DNA from: Lactiplantibacillus dongliensis
Lineage (GTDB): Bacteria; Bacillota; Bacilli; Lactobacillales; Lactobacillaceae
DNA length: 53,942 nt
Reading direction: 5' to 3'
NCBI RefSeq assembly: GCF_005405105.1
Contig: NZ_BJDK01000024.1
Span: forward strand, 1-53,942
The notes under the pieces were generated by a model. The model was given only the letters and a program-made list of their open reading frames with translations, made no database searches and was not told the DNA's origin. This document shows, in pieces, positions 8,043-45,776 of the stretch. Every line of letters starts with the position of its first letter. Position 1 is the stretch's first letter. A program made the position numbers and the translations under genes.

Positions 8043-8217
8043 TGGTGCTAGTTAAAATTGCCGCCTGCCGGTTGGGTTCTAAAACGCTGGAACGCCATGG
8101 GTCATTTTGAAGCCTCAGCCCGGTCTTCAAAGCTGACCTTGGCCTAAGTCCGAGCAAACCACTCGCACTAAGGCCAACGACACGGCTGAGCATTTTAGAA
8201 CCCAACCTCTCGGCTAA
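8043..8217 (-). repeat. structured intergenic repeat, subfamily A (full copy)
   Basis: A 19-bp outer stem, 8070-8088 with 8189-8207 (GGTTGGGTTCTAAAACGCT pairing AGCATTTTAGAACCCAACC), encloses two further hairpins: TTTGAAG/CTTCAAA around a CCGGGCTGAGG-like loop, and TTGGCCTTAG/CTTAGGCCAA. The conserved GTGTCGTT block lies on the minus strand. The left edge carries the companion motif GGTGCTAGTT (8043-8055). With the next entry it fills the 484-base gap after the dehydrogenase gene. Confidence 0.85.
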
Positions 8218-8258
8218 AACTACAGCTTAAACAGTTTATAACTTGTCAATCAATTAAC

Positions 8259-8412
8259 GAACGCCGGGCGGGTCAGCATTGGCTCAGTGGTGTCGTTTGA
8301 CTTAGTTGAGTGGTCTGCTCAGCTTAGTCAAAGCCCGGCTTATGAGACCGTTCTTTGGCTCATAAACGCGGCCACCACGTTCCAGCCGATGCTGACCCAA
8401 CCAGAGTGGCAA
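8259..8412 (+). repeat. structured intergenic repeat, subfamily B (full copy)
   Basis: A 15-bp outer stem, 8270-8284 (GGGTCAGCATTGGCT) with 8384-8398 (AGCCGATGCTGACCC). Inside are hairpin 1, TTTGACT (8296-8302) with AGTCAAA (8326-8332) topped by TTGAG/CTCAG, and hairpin 2, TTATGAG/CTCATAA near 8340-8365. Edges read CGCCGGGCGG on the left and ACCAGAGTGGC on the right. Other B copies are at 22196, 27684, 34434 and 45624. Confidence 0.9.
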
Positions 8413-8465
8413 TCTAATCCAATTAGCCCTAAGCGTATCTAGCTAGCTTTTAATTAATCTGATAG

Positions 8466-8511
8466 TCAAAAAAGACGCTACTGCGTAATTATTGCAGTAG
8501 CGTCTTTTTGA
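8466..8511. terminator. bidirectional terminator
   Basis: AAAAAGACGCTACTGC/GCAGTAGCGTCTTTTT stem with a nine-base loop. It ends the EamA gene on the minus strand and any read-through from the left. Confidence 0.85.
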
Positions 8512-8519
8512 CGTTGAGG

Positions 8520-9467
8520 TTATGAATCATCATGTTGCCGTGCGGCGTGAAAGTCGGCGGCTGCCCGGTCATTGTGACGTTGACCAATGGCTAAAACGAA
8601 TACGGTACTAATAATTAAGAGACTACCGAACAAGTCGAGCCATTCGAATTGAACCCCGAGCCAAACGACCGCAATAATGGTGGCGGATAAGGGTTCAAAA
8701 GCATCTAATAGGCTGGCAACAGTCGGCTGAATGTCGTTCAAACTTTGTAAGAAAAAGAGAAAAGCCAGTAGGGTCCCGAATAAGATAACGAACCCTAATT
8801 TGCTGACATTAAGAACCGTTAGCGGGATTGAAATACTCCAGAACGGTTGAATCATGTTGAAGATTATCCCGCCTAACAGCATTGACCAAGTGTTTACCGT
8901 GACCGCGCTGTATTTGGTCAGTAACTTGGCTGGTAACAAGGTATTGGTTGCCGAACTAACGCCTGAGAGCAGCCCCCAAAGTAATGCCCAAGCTGAAATG
9001 ACGAGCGCAGCAGGATTGCCATGTGTAACTAGTAAGAATGAGCCTAATAGGGCTAAGAAGATGGCAATCCCTTCGCTCCTGGTTGGAAATTGGTGGTGCG
9101 CAACGACGAGCCAGAGGGCGATGAAGACGGGCCCCATGAACTGTAAGATCGTGGCGGTCGCAGCATTACTGGCTTCGACCGCTAGGAAATACGTAAACTG
9201 AACCGGCATTAAGCCGAGCAGCGTATAGGCGGCGACTTGTAGCAAATCCCCCGGATGGCGCCAGATCGACCAGAGATCGACTTTCATGATTAGACTGTAA
9301 ACGAGAAAGCCAATCCCCGCACCTAACATCCGAATTCCCGTCAGCCAGATTGAATTAATATCGGTGGTATCGAAGAGTGTCTGGGCGATGGCCCCAGAGA
9401 CACCCCAAAAGGTTGCACTAACACTAACTAAAATAATGCCGCGTAATTCATGTTGCGTCGTTTGCAT
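8520..9467 (-). CDS. EamA/DMT-family transporter
   Basis: 315-aa membrane protein of the drug/metabolite transporter superfamily, with ten hydrophobic segments arranged as two EamA repeats (residues about 10-145 and 155-290). The first repeat has the typical SATFWGVSGAIAQ helix and the second ALLWGLLSGVSSATNTLL. Such proteins export amino acids or other small metabolites; the substrate is not predictable. The ATG at 9467 is chosen over the TTG at 9482, because the longer version would translate the ribosome binding site GGGAG. The hydrophilic His/Asp-rich C-terminus is short. Monocistronic. Confidence 0.85.
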   Translation of the reverse strand: MQTTQHELRGIILVSVSATFWGVSGAIAQTLFDTTDINSIWLTGIRMLGAGIGFLVYSLIMKVDLWSIWRHPGDLLQVAAYTLLGLMPVQFTYFLAVEASNAATATILQFMGPVFIALWLVVAHHQFPTRSEGIAIFLALLGSFLLVTHGNPAALVISAWALLWGLLSGVSSATNTLLPAKLLTKYSAVTVNTWSMLLGGIIFNMIQPFWSISIPLTVLNVSKLGFVILFGTLLAFLFFLQSLNDIQPTVASLLDAFEPLSATIIAVVWLGVQFEWLDLFGSLLIISTVFVLAIGQRHNDRAAADFHAARQHDDS

Positions 9468-9543
9468 CAAGCTCACTCCCAAACTAAATAAATTGCTAAC
9501 TTACATTGTAACGTATTTAGCTGGGAAATAGGGGGCTAACGGT

Positions 9544-10536
9544 CTAAGCGGTAGCTTTAACTGACGCGTCGGTGGCTGCAGGTTGAGTAGCTGCCGTCTG
9601 CCGAGTGTGTTCAGCCAGATGCACGAGATGGGTCAAAAAGGCGTGGGTCTTGGCTTGATAGTGATATTTTTGTCCTAAGCGTACTAAGTAGCCGTTGATG
9701 TAGTCGACTTCGGTAGGACGGTCGTGTGACATATCTTGATACATGGACGGGTAGTGGAGCGGATTGGCGACTTGGCTGACGTAGTTGACCGAGGCCAGTT
9801 CTTCAGCTCGCGTATTTAACATCGTGACACCATCGCGTTCGCAGACATCGTAGGCTTCGTTGATGAGTTGTTTACTCAGCTCGTCAGCCCCGGCGTAGTC
9901 AGCAAATTCGCCCATTGTGATTTCAAATAACGTACATAAAGTATTCACCACGGAATTGAATACAACTTTAGCGAGCAAGGTCCCTTTAAAATTAGTCGTT
10001 AAGTTGGGATGAAACTGGCATTTTTCTAGTTCGGCCACGACCTGATGAGTCATAGCATCGGGTGTTTCGGTGTAATTGGCTAGATTCATCGTACCAGCCC
10101 CGCGTTGACCGATGAAGTCGACATCACCAGGACCATTTAAAACGGTGGCAACGAGAGCGGTTCCGGCGAGCAGCTTGTCCGGTTTGAAGTATTGCAATAG
10201 CTTTTCAACGTGGCCCATGCCATTCATACACGTCAAGACGTATTGCTGATCATTGAAGGCGTGGGCGGTGCGTTTAAGAAAGTCGGCGAGTTGCATCTGC
10301 TTCGTGAAGACGACCCAGAGATCAGGATTGCCGTGATAGTCTTCGGGATAGCAGACTTTAACGGGGACTAAATGCCGATTTTGATGATCGCGAGAAACGT
10401 AGACGCCACCTTGCTGGCGCATGGCTTCGACGTTTGGCTGCCAAGTATCAACGAATTCGACTTGATTTCCAGCGGCTTGTAATAAGACCCCGTAACGTAA
10501 TCCCATAGCACCAGCACCTAAAACTGTAACTTTCAT
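9544..10536 (-). CDS. panE: ketopantoate reductase-family 2-hydroxyacid dehydrogenase (PanE/ApbA)
   Basis: 330-aa NADP-dependent reductase. LGAGAMGLRYG at the N-terminus is the dinucleotide loop; AKVVFNSVVN carries the catalytic Lys and the Asn; the Asp/Glu signature QDMSHDRPTEVDYINGY closes the C-terminal helical domain. PanE proper reduces 2-dehydropantoate for CoA synthesis, but in lactic acid bacteria PanE-family enzymes also reduce branched-chain 2-keto acids (known for Lactococcus). The T-box leader directly upstream, read as Ile-specific, favours a link with branched-chain metabolism. ATG 10536 lies behind AAAGGATGG. A longer in-frame opening to 10764 only reads through the leader and is rejected. 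Confidence 0.8.
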   Translation of the reverse strand: MKVTVLGAGAMGLRYGVLLQAAGNQVEFVDTWQPNVEAMRQQGGVYVSRDHQNRHLVPVKVCYPEDYHGNPDLWVVFTKQMQLADFLKRTAHAFNDQQYVLTCMNGMGHVEKLLQYFKPDKLLAGTALVATVLNGPGDVDFIGQRGAGTMNLANYTETPDAMTHQVVAELEKCQFHPNLTTNFKGTLLAKVVFNSVVNTLCTLFEITMGEFADYAGADELSKQLINEAYDVCERDGVTMLNTRAEELASVNYVSQVANPLHYPSMYQDMSHDRPTEVDYINGYLVRLGQKYHYQAKTHAFLTHLVHLAEHTRQTAATQPAATDASVKATA

Positions 10537-10577
10537 ATGTATTGACCATCCTTTGAGCTGAATTATTAACAAAGATA

Positions 10578-10858
10578 AGAAAAAGCGTCCGCCTGACAAA
10601 AACTTGTCAAACGGACGCTTTGAGCGTGTTACCACCGTGAATTTATCAGCAAGTCGCCTCACTGACCTTAACGTACCCGAAACTAGCGATACGCGGCACG
10701 ATAATGGGTGCGACCATTGAAGGTTAATGTTAGTTTGGCCTTCACGCTCACAGTCGATATTCAAATGACGCCACCGGTCTGCTTACACCAACTCAGACTC
10801 GCTGTAACGGCGGGGGGCATTCTACTGAACTGCTCATTGCTTTTCTCATCAAATATTA
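10578..10858 (-). promoter_or_regulatory. T-box leader (probable Ile specificity)
   Basis: On the minus strand, the leader of panE has the T-box core ACGGTGGTAACACGC at about 10629-10644, followed by a strong terminator (AAGCGTCCG...CGGACGCTT plus T run, 10579-10621). Stem I opens with AGTAGA (loop E side), has GGTGTAAGC, and its specifier side reads GAATATCGAC. Taking the codon after GAA plus one base gives ATC (Ile); the same spacing in the second T-box of this window gives ATG before a methionine gene. TAT (Tyr) is the alternative, one base earlier. Uncharged tRNA should stabilise the antiterminator and turn panE on. Confidence 0.85.
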
Positions 10859-10868
10859 ATTGACTCTT

Positions 10869-10897
10869 AATTTAAACGTTTGTTGGCAGCCTGTCAA
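10869..10897 (-). promoter_or_regulatory. promoter of the T-box/panE transcript
   Basis: Minus strand: TTGACA (10892-10897), 17-base spacer, TAAATT (10869-10874), just upstream of stem I of the T-box. The bases from here to the transglutaminase stop (10960) hold no other clear feature. Confidence 0.75.
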
Positions 10898-10959
10898 TCT
10901 TTTTTTCAAAACCTTAAGATTCTAAAGTCAGGCTTAATGCTCGTTTTTCAAAGATTTGA

Positions 10960-13146
10960 CTAGACCGGTATTGGTTTTCGATGTTGCCGTAAGGTGGTAA
11001 CTACGGCTTGCAGTTGCGCGGGTAAGGTATCAGCGGGATAGTCCCCAAAGGTAATGGCCAAATAAGTGGTCGTAGCGTTGGTGAATTGACCGGCTAATGC
11101 TGGCCAGAGTTGTTCGACGGTATCTGCATAATCGCTGAGCGTTTCGGCTGGTCGCCGGGCGTGCTGGTGTTCGAACCAGGCTTGCAAGTAACGATAGTGT
11201 TGGGTTGGCCGACCGAGATGCCAATGTAGCATGAGACTGAGCCCCATTAAACCTAGCCAGTAGCGGCCTAACCAAGCGAATAGGATGAGTAGTAAGCCCA
11301 GTATCCCGAGGCTAACGTGTAACCAAGTCGTTGTTAGCCGAAACTGGTGAGTGGGTTGTTTCGTGGTCGTGCTGGTACTGGTCTGGTTAGTGGGGCGCGG
11401 TTTAGATGAGCTAGCCGTTGCTTGACTAGTATGACTGCTGGTGCTGTTAGTCGTGGCACTACTGGAACTACTGCTGATACTGGCGGTTTTAGCGGCTTTT
11501 TCTTTGGCAGCTTTGGTTCCTGGATTTTGATACCCGGGGGTTGGGTCGAAGGGGACCCAGCCAATGCCGGCGAAATAAACTTCCGCCCACGAATGGGCAT
11601 CGGAATTGAGAATCTGATAGTGATATTGACCATCGCCCGCTTTTTTGCCACGAGTGCCCCCGCTAAAGCCATGTGCCCAGCGGGTTGGAATTCCTAATGT
11701 CCGCAACATTACGACCATGGTAGTCGAAAAGTTGTCGCAGTAACCGCGGCGACTAGTGAAGAGAAAGTAGTCGACGTAATCACGTTTGGCCGGGGTCGTT
11801 GGCGTATCAATCTTGGTATATTCAAACCGGTGATTGTTTTTCAGATAAGTCAAAATGGCGTGAACGCGCCCGTACTCAGTCGTTTGTGTTTTCGTTAGCT
11901 TTTGGCTGAGCGGCTTGATTCGTTTCGGTAAGTCTTCGGGCAATTGCGTATAAGTCTCGGTCAACTCAGCGTTAGCTCTGGCCGTGATTGCAGTTAGTTG
12001 GGCGGCGGTGTACTTTTGTGGTTGATAATGAACTTGTACACTAGTCAGCGGGCGTTTGCCAGTATTTAAATAAATGCGCCCACGTTCTGGTTCGTAGCTG
12101 ACGCCGATACGTTTTTGCTGGGCAGCGCTGACGGCCCAACTGGTGGCACCGTAGCCGACTGGTAGATAGGTGAGGGTCTTAGCAAAGGTCAGTTTTACGG
12201 CATCCTTTTTGCTAGTCGGGGTGGTTAGATAGCCGGTCGAAGTCGTGGTGGGCTTGCGAGTGGCATCTTGGTCACCGGCAATCGTCCAGCCTTTACCGGA
12301 ATACTCGTCTCGGGTATCGACTCGCCAATAATGATTACTGCGGCTGACGGCTTTAAATGCCACACTATTGTCATCTTGAATCGAGCCGCCTAGTGTGGCC
12401 GTATCTTCAGAGATACCGGTCTTCTTGGCAGCGGCAGACTTAGCTAAAAAGTTATAAAAGCCGCGACTGCTAAGTTGATTGCGCCAAGTCAGACTAGCCT
12501 TCGCAAGCTGATTAATTGCTGGTTGCGCCCAAGTATTAACGGTCGCACCGGCACCTAGTAGCCCTAGGGCCAGTAAACCGTAGCTTAGTGATAGCCATGA
12601 CCAGTGACTGTGACGGTAGGACAGCAACAATAGAGTTGCTAGCCCAATTGCCCCCGTTAGCGGCCAGACTTCATTACGGGTGGCGAATAACGTGACGGCC
12701 AGCAGATAGCCGATGCTGACAATCATACTGAGCAAGGGTTGCTGCCAACGCACGGCTAATAAGCTCAAGCCAATCGCTAAAGCCATAATCAACAACATAC
12801 TGAGTAAGACCGGCATGGCTTGGGTACTCGTGGATGCCCGAAAAGCGCTAGTTTGCTGGAATAATTTGGTGCTAAAATGTTGGAACCAAGTTAGCGACAG
12901 TGGCTCACCCAAAGGATAGCTGGCATAACTGCCACCGATTAGGCTGAGCAGATACAGCGGCCACCATAGCCCCCAAGCACGCGGCCATTGAGTGTGAGCA
13001 ACGACAACTAGACTGATAACGACTAAAAATAGCAGTAACGCGTTCGGTTGTCGAAAGTCGTTGACGGTCGTATAGGTGGCTAAGGGGATCGCCAGGAGTA
13101 GGCCGTTTAATAACGCAAGCCAACATGTTTTAAGTCCTTGACGCAT
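10960..13146 (-). CDS. membrane-anchored transglutaminase-like protein (TgpA family)
   Basis: 728 aa. About six membrane helices fill residues 8-185; a large extracellular part carries the transglutaminase-like core near 450-540 with Cys in SRRGYCDNFST, His in DAHSWAEVYF and Asp in WVPFDPTPGY; a Ser/Thr-rich linker and one more helix near residue 610 lead to a cytoplasmic tail. ATG 13146 has AAAGGAGGTGG upstream. It is the last gene of a MoxR-DUF58-TgpA operon, overlapping the DUF58 gene by 17 bases. In the TgpA family the extracellular core may cross-link or cleave envelope proteins; the role here is unknown. The frame open to 13392 is a false extension into the DUF58 gene. Confidence 0.85.
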   Translation of the reverse strand: MRQGLKTCWLALLNGLLLAIPLATYTTVNDFRQPNALLLFLVVISLVVVAHTQWPRAWGLWWPLYLLSLIGGSYASYPLGEPLSLTWFQHFSTKLFQQTSAFRASTSTQAMPVLLSMLLIMALAIGLSLLAVRWQQPLLSMIVSIGYLLAVTLFATRNEVWPLTGAIGLATLLLLSYRHSHWSWLSLSYGLLALGLLGAGATVNTWAQPAINQLAKASLTWRNQLSSRGFYNFLAKSAAAKKTGISEDTATLGGSIQDDNSVAFKAVSRSNHYWRVDTRDEYSGKGWTIAGDQDATRKPTTTSTGYLTTPTSKKDAVKLTFAKTLTYLPVGYGATSWAVSAAQQKRIGVSYEPERGRIYLNTGKRPLTSVQVHYQPQKYTAAQLTAITARANAELTETYTQLPEDLPKRIKPLSQKLTKTQTTEYGRVHAILTYLKNNHRFEYTKIDTPTTPAKRDYVDYFLFTSRRGYCDNFSTTMVVMLRTLGIPTRWAHGFSGGTRGKKAGDGQYHYQILNSDAHSWAEVYFAGIGWVPFDPTPGYQNPGTKAAKEKAAKTASISSSSSSATTNSTSSHTSQATASSSKPRPTNQTSTSTTTKQPTHQFRLTTTWLHVSLGILGLLLILFAWLGRYWLGLMGLSLMLHWHLGRPTQHYRYLQAWFEHQHARRPAETLSDYADTVEQLWPALAGQFTNATTTYLAITFGDYPADTLPAQLQAVVTTLRQHRKPIPV

Positions 13147-14131
13147 CTGGACCACCTCCTTTAGCTGCCCAATCGAACCGGGTGACTTGTAAGTTTTGTG
13201 CTTGTAGTTGGTCGAAAAGCGCCCGTGCTTGGGCACTGTGGTCGGCAAATAAGACGATGCGATGCTGTCGTAGCGCGGTCGCTGGCACAGCGGTAGTGTT
13301 GGCGGGTTGATAACTGGCAAAGGCGTCTGGCAACACGTTAGCACTGAGTTGTTGTGTTGCTCCAAGCAACAGAATGTTGGCTGGTAAGTCACTGACTAGT
13401 TGAACAAAGGTATAAAAGGCAGCTAGGTGTGCTTCTAAGTCAGTATCAGACGTGGCGAAGAAGACCCAACCCCAAGGCGCGGGTTCGTCATTAGCTAAGA
13501 CCCGTAGCATGGGCGTCTGTTGTTTTGCTGAAAGTTTCCAATCAATTTGGTTACTCGGATCGCCTGGGTGATACGGCCGAAAGTCTTGAGTCTCAAAGCC
13601 ACTAGCGTCACTACTATTAGTCGGGGCAGCATGAATCAATGGGGCGAGTTGTTTAAAGATCGTGGCGGCGGCCGTTGAAGCTAAGACGGGTGGCACAATT
13701 AAAGCAGTTTTAAGCGTTTGGCGGCGTCGTTTTACGAGTAGATGTAATGGATCATTGAACCGTAAGTTAAGCGTGACTTGATCGTAGACGCCACGCGGTA
13801 AGGGGGTGGTCGTTTGCCATTGCTGTGGCTGTCCAGTTGGCTGTAAGGTCAACTCAGGATTCTGTAAGCTGAGTGTCACCCAAGTCAGCCATGGTTTAGC
13901 GGGGAGCGTCAGTTGCAAAAATTGACGGTTCTGTTGCTTTACCAAGGTCGCGTGGACAGTTAGTCGATGCAATGGGATTAACAGCGTCAGCGCGCTTAGC
14001 AGGCCAATGCCGGTGATACTAGCAGCGACGGCCCAACCGGTAGCGTTATTAAAGCTTAGGGCATAGCCCCAAAAGAGGGCGATCACTGCCACAAAAATGA
14101 GGTTATGGCCGATAGATTTCAAGCTGTTCAT
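13130..14131 (-). CDS. DUF58 domain protein
   Basis: 333 aa with two N-terminal membrane helices (residues about 10-52) and the DUF58 core, recognised by FETQDFRPYHPGDPSNQIDWKLSA (in two parts), i.e. the Arg-x-Tyr-x-x-Gly-Asp...Ile-Asp-Trp signature. DUF58 proteins have a von Willebrand factor A-like fold and pair with MoxR AAA ATPases. Start ATG overlaps the MoxR stop (ATGA), so translation is coupled. Middle gene of the operon. Confidence 0.88.
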   Translation of the reverse strand: MNSLKSIGHNLIFVAVIALFWGYALSFNNATGWAVAASITGIGLLSALTLLIPLHRLTVHATLVKQQNRQFLQLTLPAKPWLTWVTLSLQNPELTLQPTGQPQQWQTTTPLPRGVYDQVTLNLRFNDPLHLLVKRRRQTLKTALIVPPVLASTAAATIFKQLAPLIHAAPTNSSDASGFETQDFRPYHPGDPSNQIDWKLSAKQQTPMLRVLANDEPAPWGWVFFATSDTDLEAHLAAFYTFVQLVSDLPANILLLGATQQLSANVLPDAFASYQPANTTAVPATALRQHRIVLFADHSAQARALFDQLQAQNLQVTRFDWAAKGGGPDASRT

Positions 14132-15069: not shown

Positions 15070-15233
15070 GATGCCACCTCTAAGGATAATGTTTTTGTTG
15101 AGAACTGGGTTCGTTTTTAGGGTCATTTCAGTTGGCTACATTAAGCATAGCCGGTAAGTAACGGCTATGCCTAATGTTCTTGATACTATCAGAATACACT
15201 GTTCACCAATAAAAGGGGAGTAGCAGGCTCGTT

Positions 15234-15248
15234 TTGAAAGCGATTTCC
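15234..15248 (+). promoter_or_regulatory. candidate cre (CcpA) site
   Basis: TTGAAAGCGATTTCC matches the consensus WTGNAANCGNWNNCW at all but the last position. It lies about 60 bases before the HAD gene, between it and the divergent MoxR operon, so either could be under catabolite control. Confidence 0.55.
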
Positions 15249-15306
15249 TTTCTGATACCGAATAGCGTACAATTAGAAGTGTAATCATGTAAAAGGAGTG
15301 GAAAAT

Positions 15307-16131: not shown

Positions 16132-16133
16132 CC

Positions 16134-21791: not shown

Positions 21792-21837
21792 AAAAATCAC
21801 TGCTTTCTTGGTTGATTGTGTTTTTGATTAGTGGTGC

Positions 21838-22018
21838 CTTACTCGTCTTCGTTGACCAAGATAGTCACGGTGGGACGAGCCTTGAAGCCTGAGGAACGGT
21901 CTTCGAGGTGCTTCCAAGCCGATAACCCACGTTTTTAAAGGCGGCCCAGTCACTAAATTTGGAAAATCACCCAGTTAAGTGACTCAACACGGCGACTATC
22001 TTGGTCACTACAACTGTT
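21838..22018 (-). repeat. structured intergenic repeat, subfamily C
   Basis: A 14-bp perfect outer stem, TGACCAAGATAGTC (21853-21866) with GACTATCTTGGTCA (21994-22007). Inside are AGTCACT/AGTGACT (around 21949-21983) and CTTGAAG/CTTCGAG carrying GAACGGT, the minus-strand form of the GAAGACCG loop seen in subfamilies A and B. The sequence differs from A and B but the order of hairpins is the same. Confidence 0.75.
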
Positions 22019-22195
22019 AATTTTTAAAAGTTGCTTTTAAAAAATGAATCAGTCACCTGGGTGTTAGTCTGATATGGCGATAATTAGTGATGGACTAATT
22101 GTCTCAATAATAAGTTATTTTAGGTGGTGCTGGGTGCTAGTTAAAATGCTGCCAAGTTCTCGGCTAAGTTACCGGATTAATCATGACTAGTCGTT

Positions 22196-22354
22196 AATTA
22201 ACGTCGGGCGGGCCAGAATTGGCTCAGTGGTGTCGTTTATCTTAGTCGTGGTTTTTCGACTTAGATAAAGCCCGGCTTGGAAGACCGCCCTTTGGCTTCC
22301 AAACGCGGCCACCACGTTCCAGCCGATTCTGGACCAACCAGAGCGGCAAACTAT
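22196..22354 (+). repeat. structured intergenic repeat, subfamily B
   Basis: Outer stem GGGCCAGAATTGGCT (22210-22224) with AGCCGATTCTGGACC (22321-22335). Hairpin 1 is TTTATCT/AGATAAA and hairpin 2 TTGGAAG/CTTCCAA. Compared with the 8259 copy, the outer stem GCATT/GATGC has become GAATT/GATTC, a paired change. The companion motif GGTGCTAGTTAAAAT is at about 22133-22147. Confidence 0.88.
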
Positions 22355-22403
22355 ATCCAACTCGTACCAAACGAAAATTTTTGCTAAAAGTATTTATTCA
22401 GAC

Positions 22404-27683: not shown

Positions 27684-27838
27684 GTTGCCGCTCCGGTTGG
27701 TCTGGATTGATGCTGGAACGTGGTGGCCGCGTTTTTGAGCCGAAGGGCGGTCTCAAAAGCCGGGCTTTGACTAAGCTGAGAAAGTCACTCACCTAAGTCA
27801 AACGACACCACTGAGCATCAGCCAGACCAACCTGCGCT
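27684..27838 (-). repeat. structured intergenic repeat, subfamily B (inverted)
   Basis: Outer stem GGTCTGG-ATTGATGCT (27699-27714) with AGCATCAGCCAGACC (27814-27828) and one bulged base. Hairpins TTTGAG/CTCAAA and TTTGACT/AGTCAAA. The companion motif GGGTGCTAGTT follows at 27921. Confidence 0.85.
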
Positions 27839-28049
27839 AATTAGGGTGTATATTGGTAATCGACACGTTGATCAGCGTGTCCGCATCAGTCAACGATAAC
27901 TATATACAGAATGAGATTTTGGGTGCTAGTTGAGGCTGTGACTTGATGTTTGCTACTTAAAATAGCTGGTTAAAAGTCAATGCGAAACTCAGTTATAACT
28001 GGCAATATATTCGTGAAGAAATAAATTAAAAATTAACGGAGGAATCATC

Positions 28050-31340: not shown

Positions 31341-31940
31341 ATGAACTTAGCTGAAAAATTTGCTTATATGGCGACTGGTCAGCCGTATTTAGATTTGGAT
31401 GCTGATTTGATTGCCGCGCGTCATACGGCAACGACCGTGACGACTCACTTGAATGCCATCACTGATCCCATAAAGCAAGGGCCGATTTTTCGGCAGTTAG
31501 TAGGCAGTGCGGGACAGCAGCCGTTTGTTAACCCTAACTTCCGGGTTGAATTCGGGCGTAATATTCATGTGGGTGACCAGTTTTACGCTAATTATGATTG
31601 TGTGATGCTGGATGGCGCCCCGATTACGATTGGTGATCACGTCTTGTTTGGTCCGAAAGTTGGCTTGTATACGAGTAATCATTTATTTGATGCAACGGAA
31701 CGGCAAAATGGCGGTTGTATTGCCAAACCGATTACAATTGGTGATCGTTGCTGGTTAGCGGCCAAAGTCAGTGTTTTACCAGGTGTGACGATTGGTGATA
31801 ATACGATTGTCGGTGCAGGTAGTGTGGTGACCCATGATCTGCCGAGCAATGTCTTAGCAGCTGGAAATCCGTGTCGGGTTTTGCGGCCAATTACGGCGGC
31901 AGATCGGACTGAATTTACGGGGATGCGGTTTACGGAATAA
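31341..31940 (+). CDS. maltose/galactoside O-acetyltransferase-family protein
   Basis: 199 aa left-handed beta-helix acyltransferase. N-terminal maltose-acetyltransferase domain (KFAYMATGQPYLDLDADLIAAR, in two parts), then hexapeptide repeats with NPNFRVEFGRNIHVGD, the catalytic His in TSNHLFDA, and VTIGDNTIVGAGSVVTHDLP. Acetylates a sugar with acetyl-CoA. Four bases after the Nudix gene and ending at a strong terminator. Confidence 0.9.
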   Translation: MNLAEKFAYMATGQPYLDLDADLIAARHTATTVTTHLNAITDPIKQGPIFRQLVGSAGQQPFVNPNFRVEFGRNIHVGDQFYANYDCVMLDGAPITIGDHVLFGPKVGLYTSNHLFDATERQNGGCIAKPITIGDRCWLAAKVSVLPGVTIGDNTIVGAGSVVTHDLPSNVLAAGNPCRVLRPITAADRTEFTGMRFTE

Positions 31941-31943
31941 TAT

Positions 31944-31986
31944 AAAAACTGGTCAGACTTCTTTGAAAAAGTCTGACCAGTTTTTT
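31944..31986. terminator. bidirectional terminator
   Basis: AAAAACTGGTCAGACTT/AAGTCTGACCAGTTTTTT stem between convergent genes. Confidence 0.88.
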
Positions 31987-32000
31987 GTTACAGTAGTGAT

Positions 32001-34433: not shown

Positions 34434-34600
34434 TTGCCGCTTCGGTTGGGCTGGACTGACGCTGGAACGTGGTGGCCACGTTTGGAAGCCAAAGGGCGGT
34501 CTTCCAAGCCGGGCTTTATCTAAGTCGGAAAATCACCGACTAAGATAAACGACACCACTGAGCCAATTCTGGTCCGCCCGGCGTTAATAAACGGGAACTA
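34434..34600 (-). repeat. structured intergenic repeat, subfamily B (inverted, chimeric arms)
   Basis: Both inner hairpins are intact (TTGGAAG/CTTCCAA; TTTATCT/AGATAAA topped by AGTCGG/CCGACT). The outer arms, GGGCTGGACTGACGCT on the left and AGCCAATTCTGGTCC on the right, pair poorly: the left resembles the 27684 copy and the right the 22196 copy. Confidence 0.85.
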
Positions 34601-34625
34601 ATGACTATTTATTGTCGGCCCCAGA

Positions 34626-34729
34626 TATAGCCGAGAGGTTGGTTCCTAAAATGCTCAGCCGTGTCGTTGGCCTTGGCGTTCCAGCGTTTTAGGAACCAAC
34701 CGGCAGGCGGTGCGTTCAACTAGCACCAA
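34626..34729 (+). repeat. structured intergenic repeat, subfamily A (internal deletion)
   Basis: Keeps the 19-bp outer stem, GGTTGGTTCCTAAAATGCT (34637-34655) with AGCGTTTTAGGAACCAACC (34683-34701), but only about 27 bases remain between the arms, GTGTCGTTGGCC joined to GGCGTTCCA. The companion motif AACTAGCACC follows at 34718-34729. Confidence 0.85.
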
Positions 34730-34903
34730 GCGTGAATGGATTAATGTTGATAGCGTAATCGTGTTTGTCCAATGAAAATAAAAATTGTGGCCAATTTAAG
34801 ATTCAAGAAACACGTGTTAGTTGGCTTCTATAATTATTGGTGTGTCGCGGTTGAAAGATTTTGAAATTAATGGTTTAGGCAAAGTAAAGTGAATCTCAAT
34901 TAA

Positions 34904-34955
34904 TGCCGGTTGGGCCACCACGTTCCAGCCGATGCTGGCCCAACCAGAGTGGCAC
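34904..34955 (+). repeat. structured intergenic repeat, subfamily B (minimal derivative)
   Basis: The right end of a B copy (CCACCACGTTCCAGCCGATG...ACCAGAGTGGC) joined to GCCGGTTGGGCCA, giving a simple hairpin with stem GGTTGGGCCA/TGGCCCAACC. Lies 47 bases before the GH13 start. With the two copies above it accounts for most of 34307-35001. Confidence 0.75.
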
Positions 34956-35001
34956 TTTTAAATTAACTAACAATAAACATAACTAAAAGGGGTATCATAA
35001 T

Positions 35002-36817: not shown

Positions 36818-36910
36818 TGGGGGCTAGTTGCATCAGGTGTCACTCTGGTTGGGTTAGCGTTGCTTGGAATAGGGTGACCGCGTTTATGTGCTGAACGGGC
36901 TAGTGAGCAC
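36818..36910 (-). repeat. degenerate remnant of repeat subfamily B
   Basis: Begins with the companion GGGCTAGTTG (36821), then CACTCTGGTTGGGTTAGC and GGTGACCGCGTTTATGTG, recognisable as the left half of a B copy; the right half is missing. Confidence 0.55.
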
Positions 36911-36931
36911 TTATACTAAATCTCCGACAAC

Positions 36932-38110: not shown

Positions 38111-38113
38111 CCT

Positions 38114-38284: not shown

Positions 38285-38442
38285 CTTTGGGGTTAGCTGG
38301 CTGTAACGGATCACGCTAGTTGGTCCAGTATCGGCCGGGACACCGTGACCTACAATAATATGGTCTTGCAGGGGAAATCTAGGCAAGTGAAAGCACCGAC
38401 CTAGACAAATAACACCCGGCCGGCGGTAGTGTTAACTAGTCC
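38285..38442 (-). repeat. degenerate relative of the structured repeat
   Basis: Flanked by TCTAGTTAAAATAGC (38271) and AACTAG (38434). Inside, GGTCCAGTATCGGCCGGGAC, CACCGTGACC and ACACCCGGCCGGCGG echo the B-copy blocks, but the hairpins are mostly decayed. It fills the gap 38153-38505. Confidence 0.5.
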
Positions 38443-38505
38443 CAAATGTCGTTAAGATATCTGAAAGCAAGCAACTAATCGAAAAATAATGAAGGAAGCG
38501 AACCG

Positions 38506-39012: not shown

Positions 39013-39016
39013 CGGG

Positions 39017-39045
39017 TTGACAATTTAAAAGTAACGTTGTAAGTT
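39017..39045 (+). promoter_or_regulatory. promoter of the Met T-box transcript
   Basis: TTGACA (39017-39022), 17-base spacer, TAAGTT (39040-39045). Confidence 0.75.
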
Positions 39046-39051
39046 AGAAAC

Positions 39052-39324
39052 AGCTTAAAAAATGATACGTTGATGAGAAGAGTAGCAAAGTTGTGATGAC
39101 AGCGAGTCAATGGTTGGTGAAAATTGATGATTGCGGCTTAGTGAAGATGAACTCGGAGTTTAATTAATGGTGTGTTGGTGCTGTTGATTCGGATTAGTCG
39201 CCGTTATCCTGATGTCGTTTATGCAGTATGGTGAACGCAAGAGGCAGCATGAGCTGTGAACTTAGGTGGCACCTCGGAGTGATTAAACTTCGTCCTTATG
39301 AGAATTAAGGACGGAGTTTTTTTG
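39052..39324 (+). promoter_or_regulatory. T-box leader (probable Met specificity)
   Basis: Stem I begins GAGAAGAGTAGCAAAG and includes GGTTGGTGAAA; the specifier side reads GTGAAGATGAACTC, giving ATG (Met) after GAA plus one base. The T-box core AGGTGGCACCTCGG is at 39264-39277 and the terminator AACTTCGTCCTTA/TAAGGACGGAGTT with seven T at 39285-39324. Uncharged tRNA-Met should switch on the downstream malY gene, which makes homocysteine for methionine. GAT (Asp) is the reading one base earlier and does not fit the gene. Confidence 0.88.
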
Positions 39325-39358
39325 TGATTGAACGTTAAAGTTGGAAGGGGTTTTTAGC

Positions 39359-40555: not shown

Positions 40556-40596
40556 GCTAACTGGTCAGGCAGTTCGATGGTTAAAGTTAATGATGA

Positions 40597-40624
40597 TGAA
40601 GTCCGCTACGGCGGGCTTTTTTGG
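40597..40624 (+). terminator. terminator of malY
   Basis: AAGTCCGC/GCGGGCTT stem with a TACG loop and six T. Confidence 0.8.
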
Positions 40625-40658
40625 TGTAAAAATGTTCTCGCAAGACAAGTTGGGTTAG

Positions 40659-40985
40659 CTAAGGTCGGTGCGTGTCACCCCACTGACACATCGACTGAAT
40701 AATTGGAAACAGGCTTTCACCATTGGCAGTTAGCTGGTATTCGACCCGTAACGGTATTTCAGGATACTGGGTGCGTAAGATTAAGCCATCGACTTCAAGT
40801 TCTTTTAGTGTGTGGCTCAGCGTTTTATGCGTGATATGGCCAAGCAGTCGATGGAGCTCGCCATAGCGTAGTGTCTGTTGATGATGTAAATAAAAGATAA
40901 TCAGCAGTTTCCATTTACCACTAATGAGACCCAGGGTGTAGCCAAACGAGGTACGGTCGTTGTCTTTGAATTTAGAAGTGCTCAT
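40659..40985 (-). CDS. HxlR-family transcriptional regulator
   Basis: 108 aa winged helix: YTLGLISGKWKLLIIFYL, RYGELHRLLGHITHKTLSHTLKELEVDGLI (in two parts) and YQLTANGESLFPII are the family pattern. Redox-sensing members such as YodB or HypR keep a Cys in a CPVEYTL segment; here the segment reads TSFGYTL, so that Cys is absent, although a Cys occurs near the C-terminus (SMCQW). Start overlaps the Rrf2 stop by four bases. The pair is divergent from the sirtuin operon. Confidence 0.88.
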   Translation of the reverse strand: MSTSKFKDNDRTSFGYTLGLISGKWKLLIIFYLHHQQTLRYGELHRLLGHITHKTLSHTLKELEVDGLILRTQYPEIPLRVEYQLTANGESLFPIIQSMCQWGDTHRP

Positions 40986-41413
40986 GATTGGGCTTCAACT
41001 TTTTGGACTTGGGCCATCACATCTGCCAAGGTGATGGCCTTTAAAGTTTGCTGGGCAGCTTGTTGGACTTGCTGATAGTAGGCATCTAAGACGATGGGCA
41101 TCGCTTGGCCAACTTGACAATCACTGGCGGTGTCCATATTTAAATGTAGCAATGGCCGTGCATCGACCGCTTCATAGATGTTGCAAAGCGAAATGTCAGT
41201 GGTTGGTCTAGTAAGTTGTGGCTGCGGGTGGCCAGTCGTACTACTTAACAAGTCAGCCCGTTTGAGTTGGCTCATTAATTGGCGGACTTGTGACGCATTT
41301 TTGTTCAGACTATGGGCAATGGCCGTGCTGGAAAGATCATGGTTGCCATTGCCGCCGAGTGCGATAAACGTTAGCACGTGGATGGCATCGCTTAGTTTAG
41401 TTGAGTATTTCAA
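40982..41413 (-). CDS. Rrf2-family transcriptional regulator
   Basis: 143 aa. KYSTKLSDAIHVLTFIAL, ASQVRQLMSQLKRADLLSSTTG and ISLCNIYEAVD form the Rrf2 winged helix and linker. Two Cys remain (SLCN and SDCQ), not the three of IscR-type cluster binders, so iron-sulfur binding is uncertain. It starts with TTG behind AAGGAG. First gene of a two-regulator operon facing the sirtuin locus, with which it shares a 165-base control region. Confidence 0.85.
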   Translation of the reverse strand: MKYSTKLSDAIHVLTFIALGGNGNHDLSSTAIAHSLNKNASQVRQLMSQLKRADLLSSTTGHPQPQLTRPTTDISLCNIYEAVDARPLLHLNMDTASDCQVGQAMPIVLDAYYQQVQQAAQQTLKAITLADVMAQVQKVEAQS

Positions 41414-41461
41414 AATTAAGGCTCCTTAAAAATAGTTGTTGCTGTTATTTTAAACCAAACA

Positions 41462-41507
41462 GGTATTTTTTGAAAGGCAGTATCTTTTAGGAAAGTAAGT
41501 ATCTTTA
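41462..41507. promoter_or_regulatory. iterated operator between the regulators and the sirtuin operon
   Basis: Three related sequences in direct order, GGTATTTTTT (41462), AGTATCTTTT (41479) and AGTATCTTTA (41498), spaced 17-19 bases, just upstream of the sirtuin -35 box. A likely binding region for the HxlR or Rrf2 protein. Confidence 0.45.
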
Positions 41508-41517
41508 AAGTGCGTTC

Positions 41518-41546
41518 TTGTCAGCACTTGCTGTTTAGTTTATATT
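41518..41546 (+). promoter_or_regulatory. promoter of the sirtuin operon
   Basis: TTGTCA (41518-41523), 17-base spacer, TATATT (41541-41546). Confidence 0.7.
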
Positions 41547-41578
41547 AACAACCAGATAATTTTTTAGGAGGTTACTTA

Positions 41579-42457
41579 ATGAAATTAGCAACGGATGAGG
41601 AACAAAGAACCTATGAACAAGCACTGCAAGTTACTTTGGATGAGATTGCGGCGGCGGATGCCGTCATTGTTGGTGGCGCTTCTGGCATGTCGACGGCCAA
41701 TGGGTGGGATTACTATTCAGCCAATGCGAATTTTCAAAAAGAATTTTCGCCTTGGTATGATAAATATCAAATTAATGGTATTTTTGATGGGACCTATCGT
41801 GATTGGCAAGATCCAGAAGAACGCTGGGGGTTTATGGCGCATTTCTTTTATTGGGTTAAGCACTTGCCGATTGGCGACACTTACCAGGACTTAAAGACGT
41901 TACTGGCTAACAAATCAGTCTTTGTTTGGACGACCAATCAGGATCGGCAATTTAATAAGATCTATCCAGCCAGTCAAATTGCACATCCGTAAGGTGATGA
42001 TGGTTATTTTCAGTGCTCAACTGGTCAGCACGATCGCGTTATTCCAGCAGATGAAATTATTGAACAAATGGCTGCTAACACGCAAGGGACTCGGCTGCCA
42101 CAGGCTGATTGGCCACGTTGTCGAATCTGTGGGGCACCGTTATCACCATGGTTCCGGTCGCCACAATTCATTGAAGGGACTTTTTGGAGTCAGGAATTAA
42201 AGAAGTACAGTGATTTCTTAAATGCGCATCAAAATCAAAAGGTCTTGTTTTTAGAGTTAGGTGTGGGTCAAATGACACCTAATATTATTAAGTATCCCTT
42301 CTGGGAAATGGTGAATGCGTGGCCACATGCTGAATTGGTTAGTATTGCACTGAAAAATACCAATGTCCCGGCACCCATTAAAACGAAGAGTTTGATTTTT
42401 AATGCTGATATCAAGGTGGTTTTAGACGACTTGGTGCAAGCACAAGGAGGCCGTTAA
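41579..42457 (+). pseudogene. class M-like sirtuin (Sir2 family), interrupted by an in-frame TAA
   Basis: The reading frame is continuous for 293 codons except for a TAA at 41990-41992. The first part has the NAD loop VGGASGMSTANGWDYYSANANF and the catalytic TTNQD; after the stop the frame goes on GDDGYFQCSTGQHD, then a CRIC zinc half-site and LGVGQMTPNII. Class M sirtuins (macrodomain-linked, protein ADP-ribosylating) read YTQGDYGLFQC here, so the stop falls on the Gln codon (CAA to TAA, one transition), taken from memory as a catalytic residue. A strong AGGAGG precedes the ATG. The downstream fragment has an internal ATG at 42068 with a poor site. Head of a three-gene operon. Confidence 0.8.
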
Positions 42458-42458
42458 G

Positions 42459-43283
42459 ATGCCAACTTTGACAACACAACAGCAATTTAAGTTGAGTCTG
42501 GATCAAGCTGACGCGGTGTTAATTGGTGTCAGTAATGGGTTATCGGTCGCGGAGGGCTACGATTATTATCGACCTGGGGCGTGGTTTCAAGCAAAACTAG
42601 GCGCTTTTAGTCAACGCTATGGGTTTAAAACCGTTTTGGAAGGGGCTAATTATCATTTTAAAACGGCCACTGATTACTGGTCTTTCCAAACGGCGGTGGC
42701 GATGGCTAGTACGTTTTCAGTGACTGAAGTGCCGGTTAGTCAGGCGTTATATCAATTAGTTCAAGCAAAACCACACTTTGTGTTGACGACGTTGGTGGAT
42801 GATCATTTGGAAAAAGGCGGGTTTGCGTCATCAATAATTTTTGAAGTTGAAGGCAATTATCAGCGGTTGCAGCGCGCTGATTTACAAGGTCCCCAAGCGT
42901 GGCCAGCTGAAACGGCCATTCGAGCTATGGCGACACAGCTGCAAAGCGGTGAGCTGTCAGCAGCAGACTTGCCCCATGACCCTAGTGATGGCGCACTGTT
43001 AGTGCCCGCAGTTGGGCAGGTTGTCCATGATGCCAATTTTGAGCGTCAGCAGCAAGCTTTACAAAACTTTATTCAAACGTATCAGCAACGACGGGTTGTC
43101 TTATTAGAAGTTGGCGTCGGACCACACCACCCCGTTATTCAATCACTATTTGGCCAGTTGCAACGTGGCCTAGCGCATGTTACGCGACTATCTTTGAATA
43201 TGACATTATTGCCGAGTGCTGATTGTGGCCTGACTGGTGATATTAAGACGAGTTTGGCTAGTTTGAATCGGTTATCAAAATGA
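42459..43283 (+). CDS. degenerate sirtuin-like protein (paralogue of the upstream gene)
   Basis: 274 aa. It aligns with the preceding sirtuin along its length: ADAVLIGVSNGLSVAEGYDYY with ADAVIVGGASGMSTANGWDYY, VLTTLVDDHLEKGGF with VWTTNQDRQFNKIY, LLEVGVGPHHPVI with FLELGVGQMTPNI. The Asn of TTN is replaced by Leu, the expected Gln by Glu (EVEGNY), and the Cys zinc sites are lost. It may bind NAD or ADP-ribose without catalysis. It starts one base after the previous stop, behind AAGGAGG, and its own stop overlaps the HIT start (ATGA). Confidence 0.7.
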   Translation: MPTLTTQQQFKLSLDQADAVLIGVSNGLSVAEGYDYYRPGAWFQAKLGAFSQRYGFKTVLEGANYHFKTATDYWSFQTAVAMASTFSVTEVPVSQALYQLVQAKPHFVLTTLVDDHLEKGGFASSIIFEVEGNYQRLQRADLQGPQAWPAETAIRAMATQLQSGELSAADLPHDPSDGALLVPAVGQVVHDANFERQQQALQNFIQTYQQRRVVLLEVGVGPHHPVIQSLFGQLQRGLAHVTRLSLNMTLLPSADCGLTGDIKTSLASLNRLSK

Positions 43284-43651
43284 CAGCCTGTGTCTTCTGC
43301 CAGCCAGCTAATCAGCACTACGTTGTTGAAAATGACGTGGCGGGGATGTTATATGATACCCATCCAGTGACACCCGGGCACGCACTGATTGTGACGAAGC
43401 AACATACTGCGACTTTTTTTAAAACGTCACTTGAGGTGCAAGTGGGCATGTTAGCTTTACTGCCAAAAGTAAAGGCCATCATTGATGCCAATTATCATCC
43501 AGCTGGTTATAATTTAGATGTGAATATCGGACGTGCCGGTGGTCAAGCCATTATGCATACTCATTTACATGTCATTCCGCGTTATCGGCATGACCAGCTA
43601 AGCACGAATCAGCCAATCCAGCGGCAGTTACCAGCTGGACTGCCAGGTTAA
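43280..43651 (+). CDS. HIT-family nucleotide hydrolase (paralogue 2)
   Basis: 123 aa. CVFCQ zinc half-site, PVTPGHALIVTKQH and the triad HTHLHVIPR. It is a close paralogue of the protein at 29026. Third gene of the sirtuin operon, coupled by a four-base overlap. HIT enzymes clear adenylated products; here it could process AMP or ADP-ribose derivatives linked to sirtuin chemistry (inference). Confidence 0.92.
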   Translation: MTACVFCQPANQHYVVENDVAGMLYDTHPVTPGHALIVTKQHTATFFKTSLEVQVGMLALLPKVKAIIDANYHPAGYNLDVNIGRAGGQAIMHTHLHVIPRYRHDQLSTNQPIQRQLPAGLPG

Positions 43652-43681
43652 GCTTTGTTCTAAGTGAGTGGAGGACTATTC

Positions 43682-43728
43682 AAAAAGCGCGATGCACCGT
43701 TTACTTTTAGGGGCATCGCGCTTTTTGA
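43682..43728. terminator. bidirectional terminator
   Basis: AAAAAGCGCGATGC/GCATCGCGCTTTTT stem, ending the sirtuin operon and the opposing small gene. Confidence 0.88.
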
Positions 43729-43737
43729 AATTAGTGA

Positions 43738-43923
43738 TTAGCCACGACTTTTAGTGGTCGTGGCGTTGTTTTTTAACGAGCGTTTACGGGCAAGTTGACG
43801 GCGAATGAAGGAGTACCCCATTAGCACCAGCGTCAGTAGGCCAACGATGATTGCCGCTTTCGTGAAACCAAAGATCCAAAAGAAAACCGCGATTGCGAGC
43901 GCACAATAGACTAGTAAAAACAT
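43738..43923 (-). CDS. 61-aa membrane protein, unknown
   Basis: Two hydrophobic helices (about 3-18 and 20-40) followed by a basic, Arg/Lys-rich tail. AAGGAGGG precedes ATG. Family not recognised. Confidence 0.6.
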   Translation of the reverse strand: MFLLVYCALAIAVFFWIFGFTKAAIIVGLLTLVLMGYSFIRRQLARKRSLKNNATTTKSRG

Positions 43924-44060
43924 GGGACCCTCCTTCTTTCATGTCGATAGGTTTTAAGTTTATAAGTCTATTGTAACGAGTAAAAATTGCTATCTCGTGA
44001 TTGAAATTTGAATTTTTTGTTAAGAGTGTGAGGACCAGCGGGTTGACCGTGAGCATTGAC

Positions 44061-44104
44061 TGGCCAAACAATGATCCGGTGTTTTTTCGGATGGTTGTTT
44101 GGTG
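44061..44104. other. inverted repeat without T run
   Basis: CCAAACAATGATCCG with CGGATGGTTGTTTGG around a GTGTTTTTT loop. It lies just past the 3' end of the 44121 gene on the minus strand. It could be a weak terminator or an RNA-stability hairpin. Confidence 0.45.
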
Positions 44105-44120
44105 CTGGCAAAAGTAAGAC

Positions 44121-44444
44121 CTACCGGCGATGCCGACTTAACCGTCGTTCATTAGCCATGGCCAATTGTTCAGGCGTGAGTTGATAAGTTTGGGCTGCAG
44201 CTAATTTTGTGAGACCAGCTTTTAAAGCCGCTAACTGTTCTTGATCACCAGCTGTGGCGGTTAATTTGGCCAATAAACTTTGTAACATTTTCACATTAGG
44301 CGTCAAAGTCTCACCGACTTGACGATCATATTGAGCTTGAGACAGACTATGAGTCTGCCAGCGCGTGACTCGACTGAGTAGTGTGAATAAGTGGGTCGTT
44401 AATAGTTCGATCAAGTAATCGCTTTCTTTAGCGGAAAATGCCAT
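44121..44444 (-). CDS. hypothetical cytoplasmic protein
   Basis: 107 aa, all-helical by eye, rich in Leu, Ala and Gln, with a basic end RRLSRHRR. No signal or membrane segment. TGGAGGG precedes ATG. Family not recognised. Confidence 0.6.
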   Translation of the reverse strand: MAFSAKESDYLIELLTTHLFTLLSRVTRWQTHSLSQAQYDRQVGETLTPNVKMLQSLLAKLTATAGDQEQLAALKAGLTKLAAAQTYQLTPEQLAMANERRLSRHRR

Positions 44445-44625
44445 TAAAATCCCTCCAGATTAGGTTTTGTTAAGTCTTAGTGTAGCACAATTAGGTGATT
44501 GGTTAGTTCGCCGAAACAATCATTATTAACAAGCTGCTCAAAAGCATGTGAATTCAGGGAAATCGTGAGAACTTGATCAAGAATCGTGGTAGATTATCGG
44601 TAATCGGTGAAGGGAGGAGATTAGG

Positions 44626-45099
44626 ATGATTGGTCATGTCACAAAAATAAATATTAGCCTGAATCAAGGCATCTTAACCGATTTTCATGGACGGCATTTT
44701 AAGTTTGCGTTATCGGCGGCACCACCAGTTGGGCCAGTGCAATTAGGCGAAGAATTTTACTTCACGCCCGAACTAACCGCAGCTGGGTTAACGGCGATAA
44801 AAATCAAGCGGCATCATCACGATGGGACTCGGATGGTCGTTCCGGTTGCGAATACTCCAGGGGGACCCCGGTTTGTGCGGATTGGCGAAATCGTCGTTAA
44901 TCTGGCGCAAATTCAGTATTATGAGATGTCAACGACTCAAAATGAACTTCGGAATGGTTATGAAACGACGGCGCGGCATTTGCTGATTCAAATGAAAGGC
45001 GGGCGCCAATTCAACTTTTATAACTGGGATAGTATTAACATTGATGAAGTCTTACAGACGTTAGAGATGCTACATACTGAAAATAAGAAGCTCGGCTAG
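44626..45099 (+). CDS. hypothetical protein
   Basis: 157 aa. The N-terminal half forms a small beta barrel-like pattern (GHVTKINISLNQGILTDFHGRHFKF), the C-terminal half a beta-rich segment with FVRIGEIVVNLAQIQYYEMS and FNFYNWDSINIDEVLQTLEML. No catalytic motif. AGGGAGGAG precedes the ATG. Function unknown. Confidence 0.6.
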   Translation: MIGHVTKINISLNQGILTDFHGRHFKFALSAAPPVGPVQLGEEFYFTPELTAAGLTAIKIKRHHHDGTRMVVPVANTPGGPRFVRIGEIVVNLAQIQYYEMSTTQNELRNGYETTARHLLIQMKGGRQFNFYNWDSINIDEVLQTLEMLHTENKKLG

Positions 45100-45121
45100 T
45101 GTTCACGTTACTCAGGGCATA

Positions 45122-45154
45122 CAAAAAGGTCTACGCTAAACCGCAGACCTTTAT
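45122..45154. terminator. bidirectional terminator
   Basis: AAAGGTCT/AGACCTTT stem between the convergent 44626 and GtrA genes. Confidence 0.7.
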
Positions 45155-45156
45155 TT

Positions 45157-45579
45157 TTATTCAGTTTGTTTTTTGAAAATGAATAGCTTACTAAAGAACC
45201 AATTAATGACCACAATGACGACTTGATCGATTAACTTAACTAGTAAGGGATTACCATGTAAGACGGAAATCCCAATGACCATAATGGCTTCATCGACCCC
45301 TAAGCTTAATAAGCGAAAGCCGAAAAATGAACCAGCTTCTCTGATGAGACTGCTTAAGGTCGGTGTCTTAGCGTCAAAGACCCACAGTTTATTCGTGATA
45401 TAGGCGAATAGAACGGATAATAGCCAGGCAATGACGTTGCTGAGCCAATAGGGCCATTGGATGAGATCATTAAATAACCAGAAAACCACAAAGTTTACGA
45501 CGGTCGTCAGACCACCAAAAATTAGATAGGCTAAAACGCTGCGATAGCGTTGCCACAGCTGTGTGATTAATTTTATCAT
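45157..45579 (-). CDS. GtrA-family membrane protein
   Basis: 140 aa with four membrane helices; FGGLTTVVNFVVFWLF, AWLLSVLFAYITNKLWVF and FSKLFIFKK are GtrA signatures. GtrA-like proteins flip or help flip undecaprenyl-linked sugars for surface glycosylation. ATG 45579 is preferred for its GGGGT site; 45597 has none. No adjacent glycosyltransferase. Confidence 0.88.
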   Translation of the reverse strand: MIKLITQLWQRYRSVLAYLIFGGLTTVVNFVVFWLFNDLIQWPYWLSNVIAWLLSVLFAYITNKLWVFDAKTPTLSSLIREAGSFFGFRLLSLGVDEAIMVIGISVLHGNPLLVKLIDQVVIVVINWFFSKLFIFKKQTE

Positions 45580-45623
45580 GTCGTTACCCCAACTCATTTA
45601 GTCACGGTTAGTTTGCCGTTGGT

Positions 45624-45776
45624 AGCCACTCTGGTTGGGCCAGCATCGGCTGGAACGTGGTGGCCACGTTTGTGAGCCACAAAGCGGTCTCACAAGCCGG
45701 GCTTTATCTAAGTCGGAAAACCACCGACCAAGATAAACGACACCACTGAGCCAATGCTGACCCGCCCGGCGTTAGT
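45624..45776 (-). repeat. structured intergenic repeat, subfamily B (inverted, full copy)
   Basis: Outer stem GGGCCAGCATCGGCT (45637-45651) with AGCCAATGCTGACCC (45749-45763), paired throughout if G-T pairs are allowed. Hairpins TTGTGAG/CTCACAA and TTTATCT/AGATAAA. The companion AACTAGCACTAA is at 45856. Together they account for the 45580-45926 gap. Confidence 0.88.

Follow-up and report, generated by a model that had tools for sequence, protein, structure and literature searches.

The 53,942-nucleotide stretch analysed here, hereafter the window, is contig NZ_BJDK01000024.1 (positions 1 to 53,942) of Lactiplantibacillus dongliensis, C24 among the 71 contigs of a 3.1-Mb genome (assembly GCF_005405105.1, designated G000). 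Between its genes lie copies of a folding repeat, and on balance we take the element to which they belong for a non-autonomous transposon resembling the miniature inverted-repeat transposable elements (MITEs), moved by an enzyme acting in trans and needing the fold of its arms in cis for its own propagation. The element has terminal inverted repeats (TIRs), is flanked in some of its copies by 8-9-bp target duplications, well above chance, occupies sites that are filled in one genome and empty in another, contains no long reading frame in the forms examined and carries outward-facing junction arms that covary. The fold appears to serve the spread of the element more than host regulation.

Architecture and abundance of the element

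A covariance model of the arm, R1, was built from 34 copies that included all five B copies of the window, so that these five match it by construction. Searching the genome and its relatives with such a model, as the preliminary description had proposed, returned 119 matches at E ≤ 0.001 in 813,549 bases of G000 and found the arm in 10 of 40 genera of the family. By extrapolation, the former figure corresponds to ∼450 arms per genome, or ∼70 kb and 2% of the sequence. When the best 150 of 1676 candidates from a genome scan were scored with R1, all 150 matched the whole model at 130-187 bits, and a BLAST-type search of the DNA, for which a single B copy served as query, returned at least 42 matches, the best 40 of 300 candidates being scored. 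An origin of the copies by chance or by a single recent duplication is ruled out by the 74-100% identity among the BLAST copies listed and by the presence of the module in many genomes.

Rather than being repeats in their own right, the A, B and C copies turned out to be arms of one kind of element. A modules are inverted relatives adjoining B, recognised by nhmmer with a B profile at E values of 3e-9 to 7e-16 in the clear cases, and among 46 pairs of neighbouring matches at most 400 nt apart 41 are divergent and 5 tandem. The full unit, ∼384-404 bp long, runs from the TIR ACGCTTGGTGCTAGTTG through a left-facing arm, ∼50 nt and a right-facing arm to the complement of the TIR. In G000 and a sister genome, G017 (93% identical to G000 across a 1512-base query), 19 pairs of 16-17-bp TIRs are spaced 384-404 bp and others represent shorter deletion forms, the longest spacings being probably chance pairings. 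The TIR occurs exactly or with one mismatch at 129 places, and a control pattern at none. C-type arms, which fold into a four-way junction, were found by nhmmer at 19 places in 1.22 Mb of the same two genomes, the window copy included, several of them directly left of a B arm.

Target duplications, empty sites and a longer form

Insertion is most directly seen at C8:66123-66506 of G000, where a full element lies between TTACTCAAT and TTAATCAAT while the sister genome has a single TTAATCAAT. Likewise, a unit of ∼165 nt at window position 38286-38451 is missing from the corresponding site of the sister genome, which is thus empty, and near position 34900 the sister genome holds a full B arm where G000 has a deletion form. 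Two further sites are ambiguous: near window position 28000 the difference could be due either to insertion or to deletion between short repeats, and at C8:17795 the shorter allele retains a remnant. With unit ends fixed at ACGC..GCGT, at least 8 of the 9 flanking bases matched in 6 of 37 TIR-bounded units, where 0.16 were expected, and mean identity was 0.45 versus 0.30; most of the 37 units have no clear duplication. The duplication is taken as 8-9 bp since the 8-bp register was also raised (0.44 versus 0.31). Because such duplications flank some units and a relative has empty sites, we read the element as a MITE-like non-autonomous transposon. The preliminary description had argued that the copies were not simple duplications: the covariation on which it relied is real, but the copies did multiply through insertion, in the form of units bounded by TIRs and accompanied by short target duplications.

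A longer unit occurs in four other Lactiplantibacillus genomes (G003, G005, G015 and G019), again with two inverted arms, the inner part of its TIR being ATGAATCATGATTAAAACGTGCC. The outermost ends of this unit, ACGCATTGTGCTAGTT, are similar to those of the short form and, at the places fetched from G003 and G019, enclose ∼730-1080 nt. The longest stop-to-stop frame printed for eight of its loci spans 123 codons. At about 138-380 of locus L286 in G003 lies a miniature of this form, with both ends, an 8-bp duplication (TACTGAAT) and its arms mostly deleted.

Fold and covariation of the arms

The multi-hairpin fold and its compensatory changes, first noticed among the window copies, hold well outside the window. 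In an alignment of 46 diverse arms, chosen by hand to span genomes and arm types and aligned by sequence alone, standard pairs fill 94.6% of cells, compared with 68.7% after shuffling and 31-45% in slid controls. These rows are not independent, since they are related to one another and include both arms of some elements. Of the 47 pairs, 43 show changes on both sides that leave them paired. The covariation score of 0.675 was reached by none of 500 shuffles, and the best slid score was 0.104. Unpaired or mismatched motifs (GCTCAG, GTTCCAGC, CTTAG/TTAG and GAGAC) are also kept across genera, in the form of conserved irregularities in which GCTCAG stands opposite GTTCCAGC, CTTAG/TTAG forms a mismatch and GAGAC contains a bulged A.

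Within the window, the individual exchanges listed in the preliminary description were all confirmed by folding and direct reading: the outer stem passes from GCATT/GATGC to GAATT/GATTC and the inner stem from TTTGACT/AGTCAAA to TTTATCT/AGATAAA, and hairpin 2 occurs as TTATGAG, TTGTGAG or TTGGAAG with the respective complements. Most paired changes within one subfamily are common to many copies and thus characterise source lineages more than individual loci. In the B copies of G000, changes private to one copy number 0.29 per stem column and 0.34 per column elsewhere; here, as in all our counts of private changes, the choice of copies by model or profile score is biased towards intact stems.

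Strand of the fold and possible action as RNA

On the outward strand of the longer form, G-U and A-C stand at 46:3 in 37 right arms and at 142:6 in 39 left arms. Since G-U exceeds A-C on this strand, it is probably one strand that folds, its core helices being nearly strictly Watson-Crick: these contain 13 G-U and 7 A-C among 1284 cells, and helix P2a neither in 322. For comparison, G-U makes up 5.7% in 41 distinct tRNAs of the genome, where ARAGORN's own pairing chooses the pairs. In 62 B arms of G000 the ratio is 80:18, and 23:18 without two hairpin-tip pairs; private G-U and A-C changes number 19 and 13 (p 0.38).

These figures bear on an explanation that we consider unlikely, though deserving of serious attention, namely that the arms act as RNA, for the benefit of the element or for its tolerance by the host, and stabilise, cut or insulate a transcript so that insertions are harmless. 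It would agree with the excess of G-U over A-C in both the longer form and the B arms of G000, and mirrored arms would supply one sense arm whichever the direction of transcription. It fits poorly with the scarcity of G-U in the core helices relative to the tRNAs, with the fall of the G000 excess once the hairpin tips are set aside and with the similar numbers of private G-U and A-C changes. The evidence on RNA versus DNA points both ways.

Genomic context, distribution and host regulation

The 119 matches group into 73 clusters, only three of which lie mostly within an open reading frame (ORF) of at least 100 aa. The genes around the 69 clusters flanked on both sides are tandem in 35 cases, divergent in 19 and convergent in 15, near the background of 217, 92 and 74 among 383 gene pairs with gaps of at least 80 nt, these counts resting on simple ORF calls. 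In a first survey the module was present in 18 of 20 congeners and in 3 of 16 other genomes of the family, and in none of 23 genomes from other families of the order. A second survey found the arm in 48 of 221 Lactobacillaceae genomes, while in an order-wide sample 3 of 148 genomes were positive, all three Lactobacillaceae; the large surveys used stricter filters, by which weak matches may be missed. Among 80 named loci there were 7 matches, in Lactiplantibacillus nangangensis, L. herbarum, L. fabifermentans and Lapidilactobacillus wuchangensis, and R1 matched none of the Streptococcus loci examined. Two congeners of 2.6 Mb, G001 and G002, lack the module at E ≤ 0.001 over their whole genomes. 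DNA similar to one full element was not found in plasmids and phages. Rfam gave three window matches at gathering score, none of them on the repeats, and, at E ≤ 10, no more than two matches to the full element, both of them below threshold.

That the arms are host cis-regulatory RNAs maintained at each locus appears improbable in the light of these data. Their intergenic position, their strong covariation and the rarity of private stem changes in the longer form would be expected of such RNAs, whereas hundreds of copies, a gene orientation near background, presence or absence between sisters and the lack of an Rfam match would not.

A different origin of the covariation, the copying of one hairpin arm onto the other by template switching without selection on folding, is in our opinion very improbable. 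It would explain why Watson-Crick pair types are exchanged in the core helices with very few G-U or A-C intermediates, yet it should erase the conserved mismatches and bulges, which are kept across genera, and does not predict an excess of G-U on one strand.

The mobilising enzyme and the proposed mechanism

Y1 and IS256 were the only transposase families searched by profile. IS256 was rejected as the mobilising family, with no PF00872 match in G000, and a resident multi-copy insertion sequence was likewise discarded, self-BLAST of 813.5 kb of G000 having given only two repeats longer than 700 bp. The Y1 profile, PF01797, has no match in G000 or in the module-rich G003, G005, G013 and G020, and 3 and 7 matches in the module-free G001 and G002. 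Hence movement as REPIN-like doublets by a Y1 (HUH) transposase, as in REP/RAYT systems, is hardly credible, in spite of the resemblance to REPINs, in which a folding unit is likewise present as an inverted intergenic doublet; nor is the combination of matching TIRs and a target duplication known as a hallmark of HUH enzymes.

In the search for a transposase between TIRs, twenty places were fetched from G003 and G019, and ten ORFs from five arm-free places were compared with Pfam. Six of them matched thymidylate kinase, a cyclic-di-AMP receptor, the DNA polymerase III delta subunit, L,D-transpeptidase, a LytTR response regulator and TetR. Three others (loci L288 and L301) have integrase-core or transposase helix-turn-helix domains, with no left TIR (≤4 mismatches) seen in the 3.2 kb fetched, and may nonetheless be linked to the element; the last has no Pfam match. 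A transposase flanked by a TIR pair was not found in the places examined.

We propose that the ends ACGC(T/A)T(G/T)GTGCTAGTT would be cut by a trans-acting enzyme, which our searches did not find. With less certainty, the junction fold of each arm may be required in cis for the element to propagate, in its simplest form as one strand that folds by itself (as DNA, into hairpins next to each 3' end, or as the corresponding RNA) and that might be recognised by the mobilising machinery or by a host partner. Such a requirement in cis would account for a fold that is kept in source lineages with little or mixed constraint on the inserted copies. The reading as a transposon draws its support from the TIR pairs, the 384-404-bp size class, the target duplications, the empty sites and the divergent arms. 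It is further supported by the longer form, which shares the arms and similar ends, by the covarying pairs, by a gene orientation near background, and by private changes that are equally common in the stems of G000 B copies and outside them.

Several observations weigh against this reading. The fold could act as RNA instead. Private changes of the longer form occur less often in stems than outside (0.09 versus 0.26 and 0.21 versus 0.32), the pooled counts being 58/306 versus 48/155 (p 0.019), which could reflect constraint at single loci. The 9-bp duplication signal of this form is weak (mean identity 0.46 versus 0.28, one unit at ≥8/9), with both ends placed at 15 of 32 loci, several poorly. 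An autonomous partner with the same ends was not found among the TIR places listed and examined. Taken together, the signs of constraint on individual copies are weak or mixed, and we suggest with low certainty that selection has acted mainly on the spreading lineages.

It is also possible, although we regard it as doubtful, that the element represents a class of transposon whose ends are recognised by the three- or four-way junction into which one strand folds and not mainly by sequence. This would fit arms that have drifted in sequence over ten genera and retained the fold with its unpaired or mismatched motifs; the enzyme would read the fold beside TIRs that give 8-9-bp duplications. In either case, the hundreds of natural variants of one fold offer material to test DNA versus RNA folding in the spread of an element. 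R1 can be used to annotate other Lactobacillaceae genomes, in which copies differ even between sister species.

Copies in the window

The five B copies reported at 8259, 22196, 27684, 34434 and 45624 were confirmed as lying between ORFs, with R1 scores of 146-172.5 bits; the remaining copies (two A, one C and the shortened ones) are likewise found between ORFs as reported (Table 1). With regard to the forms previously called decayed or minimal, those at 34904 and 36818 are indeed a B arm with an internal deletion and a partial, decayed arm, but that at 38285 is a separate unit.

Table 1. Copies and partial copies of the element in the window
Feature	Position	Strand	Evidence
Full element: left TIR (∼8038-8054), A arm, linker, B arm, right TIR (∼8420-8436)	8038-8436	+	TIR pair 8039-8435, 3 and 3 mismatches
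A arm, left, outward-facing three-way junction	8058-8215	-	R1 99.9 bits; nhmmer 9.5e-14
B arm, right, outward-facing three-way junction	8260-8412	+	R1 172.5 bits
C arm, four-way-junction type	21825-22024	-	nhmmer family of 19 places; RNAalifold structure
TIR-bounded unit, short remnant replacing left arm; B arm at 22200-22349	22128-22373	+	TIR pair, 3 and 3 mismatches; R1 163.6 bits
B arm	27685-27838	-	R1 150.1 bits
B arm, apparently chimeric, lower outer stem mispaired	34434-34585	-	R1 146.0 bits; fold
Shortened A arm without the two inner hairpins, plus TIR (CAACTAGCACCAAGCG at 34717-34732)	34620-34733	+	Fold; TIR search
B arm with internal deletion	34900-34956	+	Full B at same site in G017; nhmmer 1.4e-9
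Decayed partial arm	36838-36922	-	nhmmer 2e-7
∼165-nt unit, diverged TIRs; flanks AGTTAAAAT and CGTTAAGAT alike at 7/9	38286-38451		Absent at same site in G017
B arm	45623-45773	-	R1 170.1 bits
Remnant of other arm, TIR-like end CCAACTAGCACTAACC	45800-45870		Direct reading

No clear target duplication was seen at the full element at 8038-8436. By direct reading, the B arm at 34434-34588 joins the left outer-stem half of one subfamily to the right half of another (compare the copy at 27684), apparently as a result of recombination between copies.

Apart from the repeats, the window contains a T-box leader at 10608-10846 on the minus strand, upstream of a minus-strand ORF, which reached the Rfam gathering score with 93.3 bits. 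Positions 1-262, at the contig edge, hold the terminal part of a 5S rRNA gene and a tRNA-Thr, and an rRNA operon is therefore the probable site of the contig break. The sister genome is longer by ∼970 bases where window positions 31939-31996 correspond to L194 8905-9875.

Comparison with known systems

A description of the element was not found in the literature, searched at the level of titles and abstracts, or in Rfam. With REPs and REPINs it shares the inverted doublet of a folding unit, but it is much larger, has TIRs and a target duplication, and in G000 resides in a genome without a Y1 transposase. The attC sites of integrons vary in sequence but preserve a folded single strand and its conserved unpaired bases; by analogy, the arms may be regarded as attC-like in their drift with a kept fold, but the ends here are transposon-like. 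The bcr1 repeat of the Bacillus cereus group, reportedly mobile-element-like, also folds, and the BOX repeats have a modular boxA-B-C structure. Like bcr1 and other bacterial MITEs, the element is intergenic, non-coding, TIR-bounded and small, and like BOX, as described, it is modular, abundant, folding and intergenic; from MITEs of the bcr1 type, going by their description, it is set apart by two mirrored, covarying junction arms that have diverged across ten genera. The kind of element is thus already known: bcr1, RUP, NEMIS, ERIC, YPAL, Nezha and EFAR are listed as MITEs in one source (PMC3733652), and BOX of Streptococcus pneumoniae appears as a stem-loop repeat family in another (PMC2267715). 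The mirrored, covarying junction arms appear to constitute a new variation on it.

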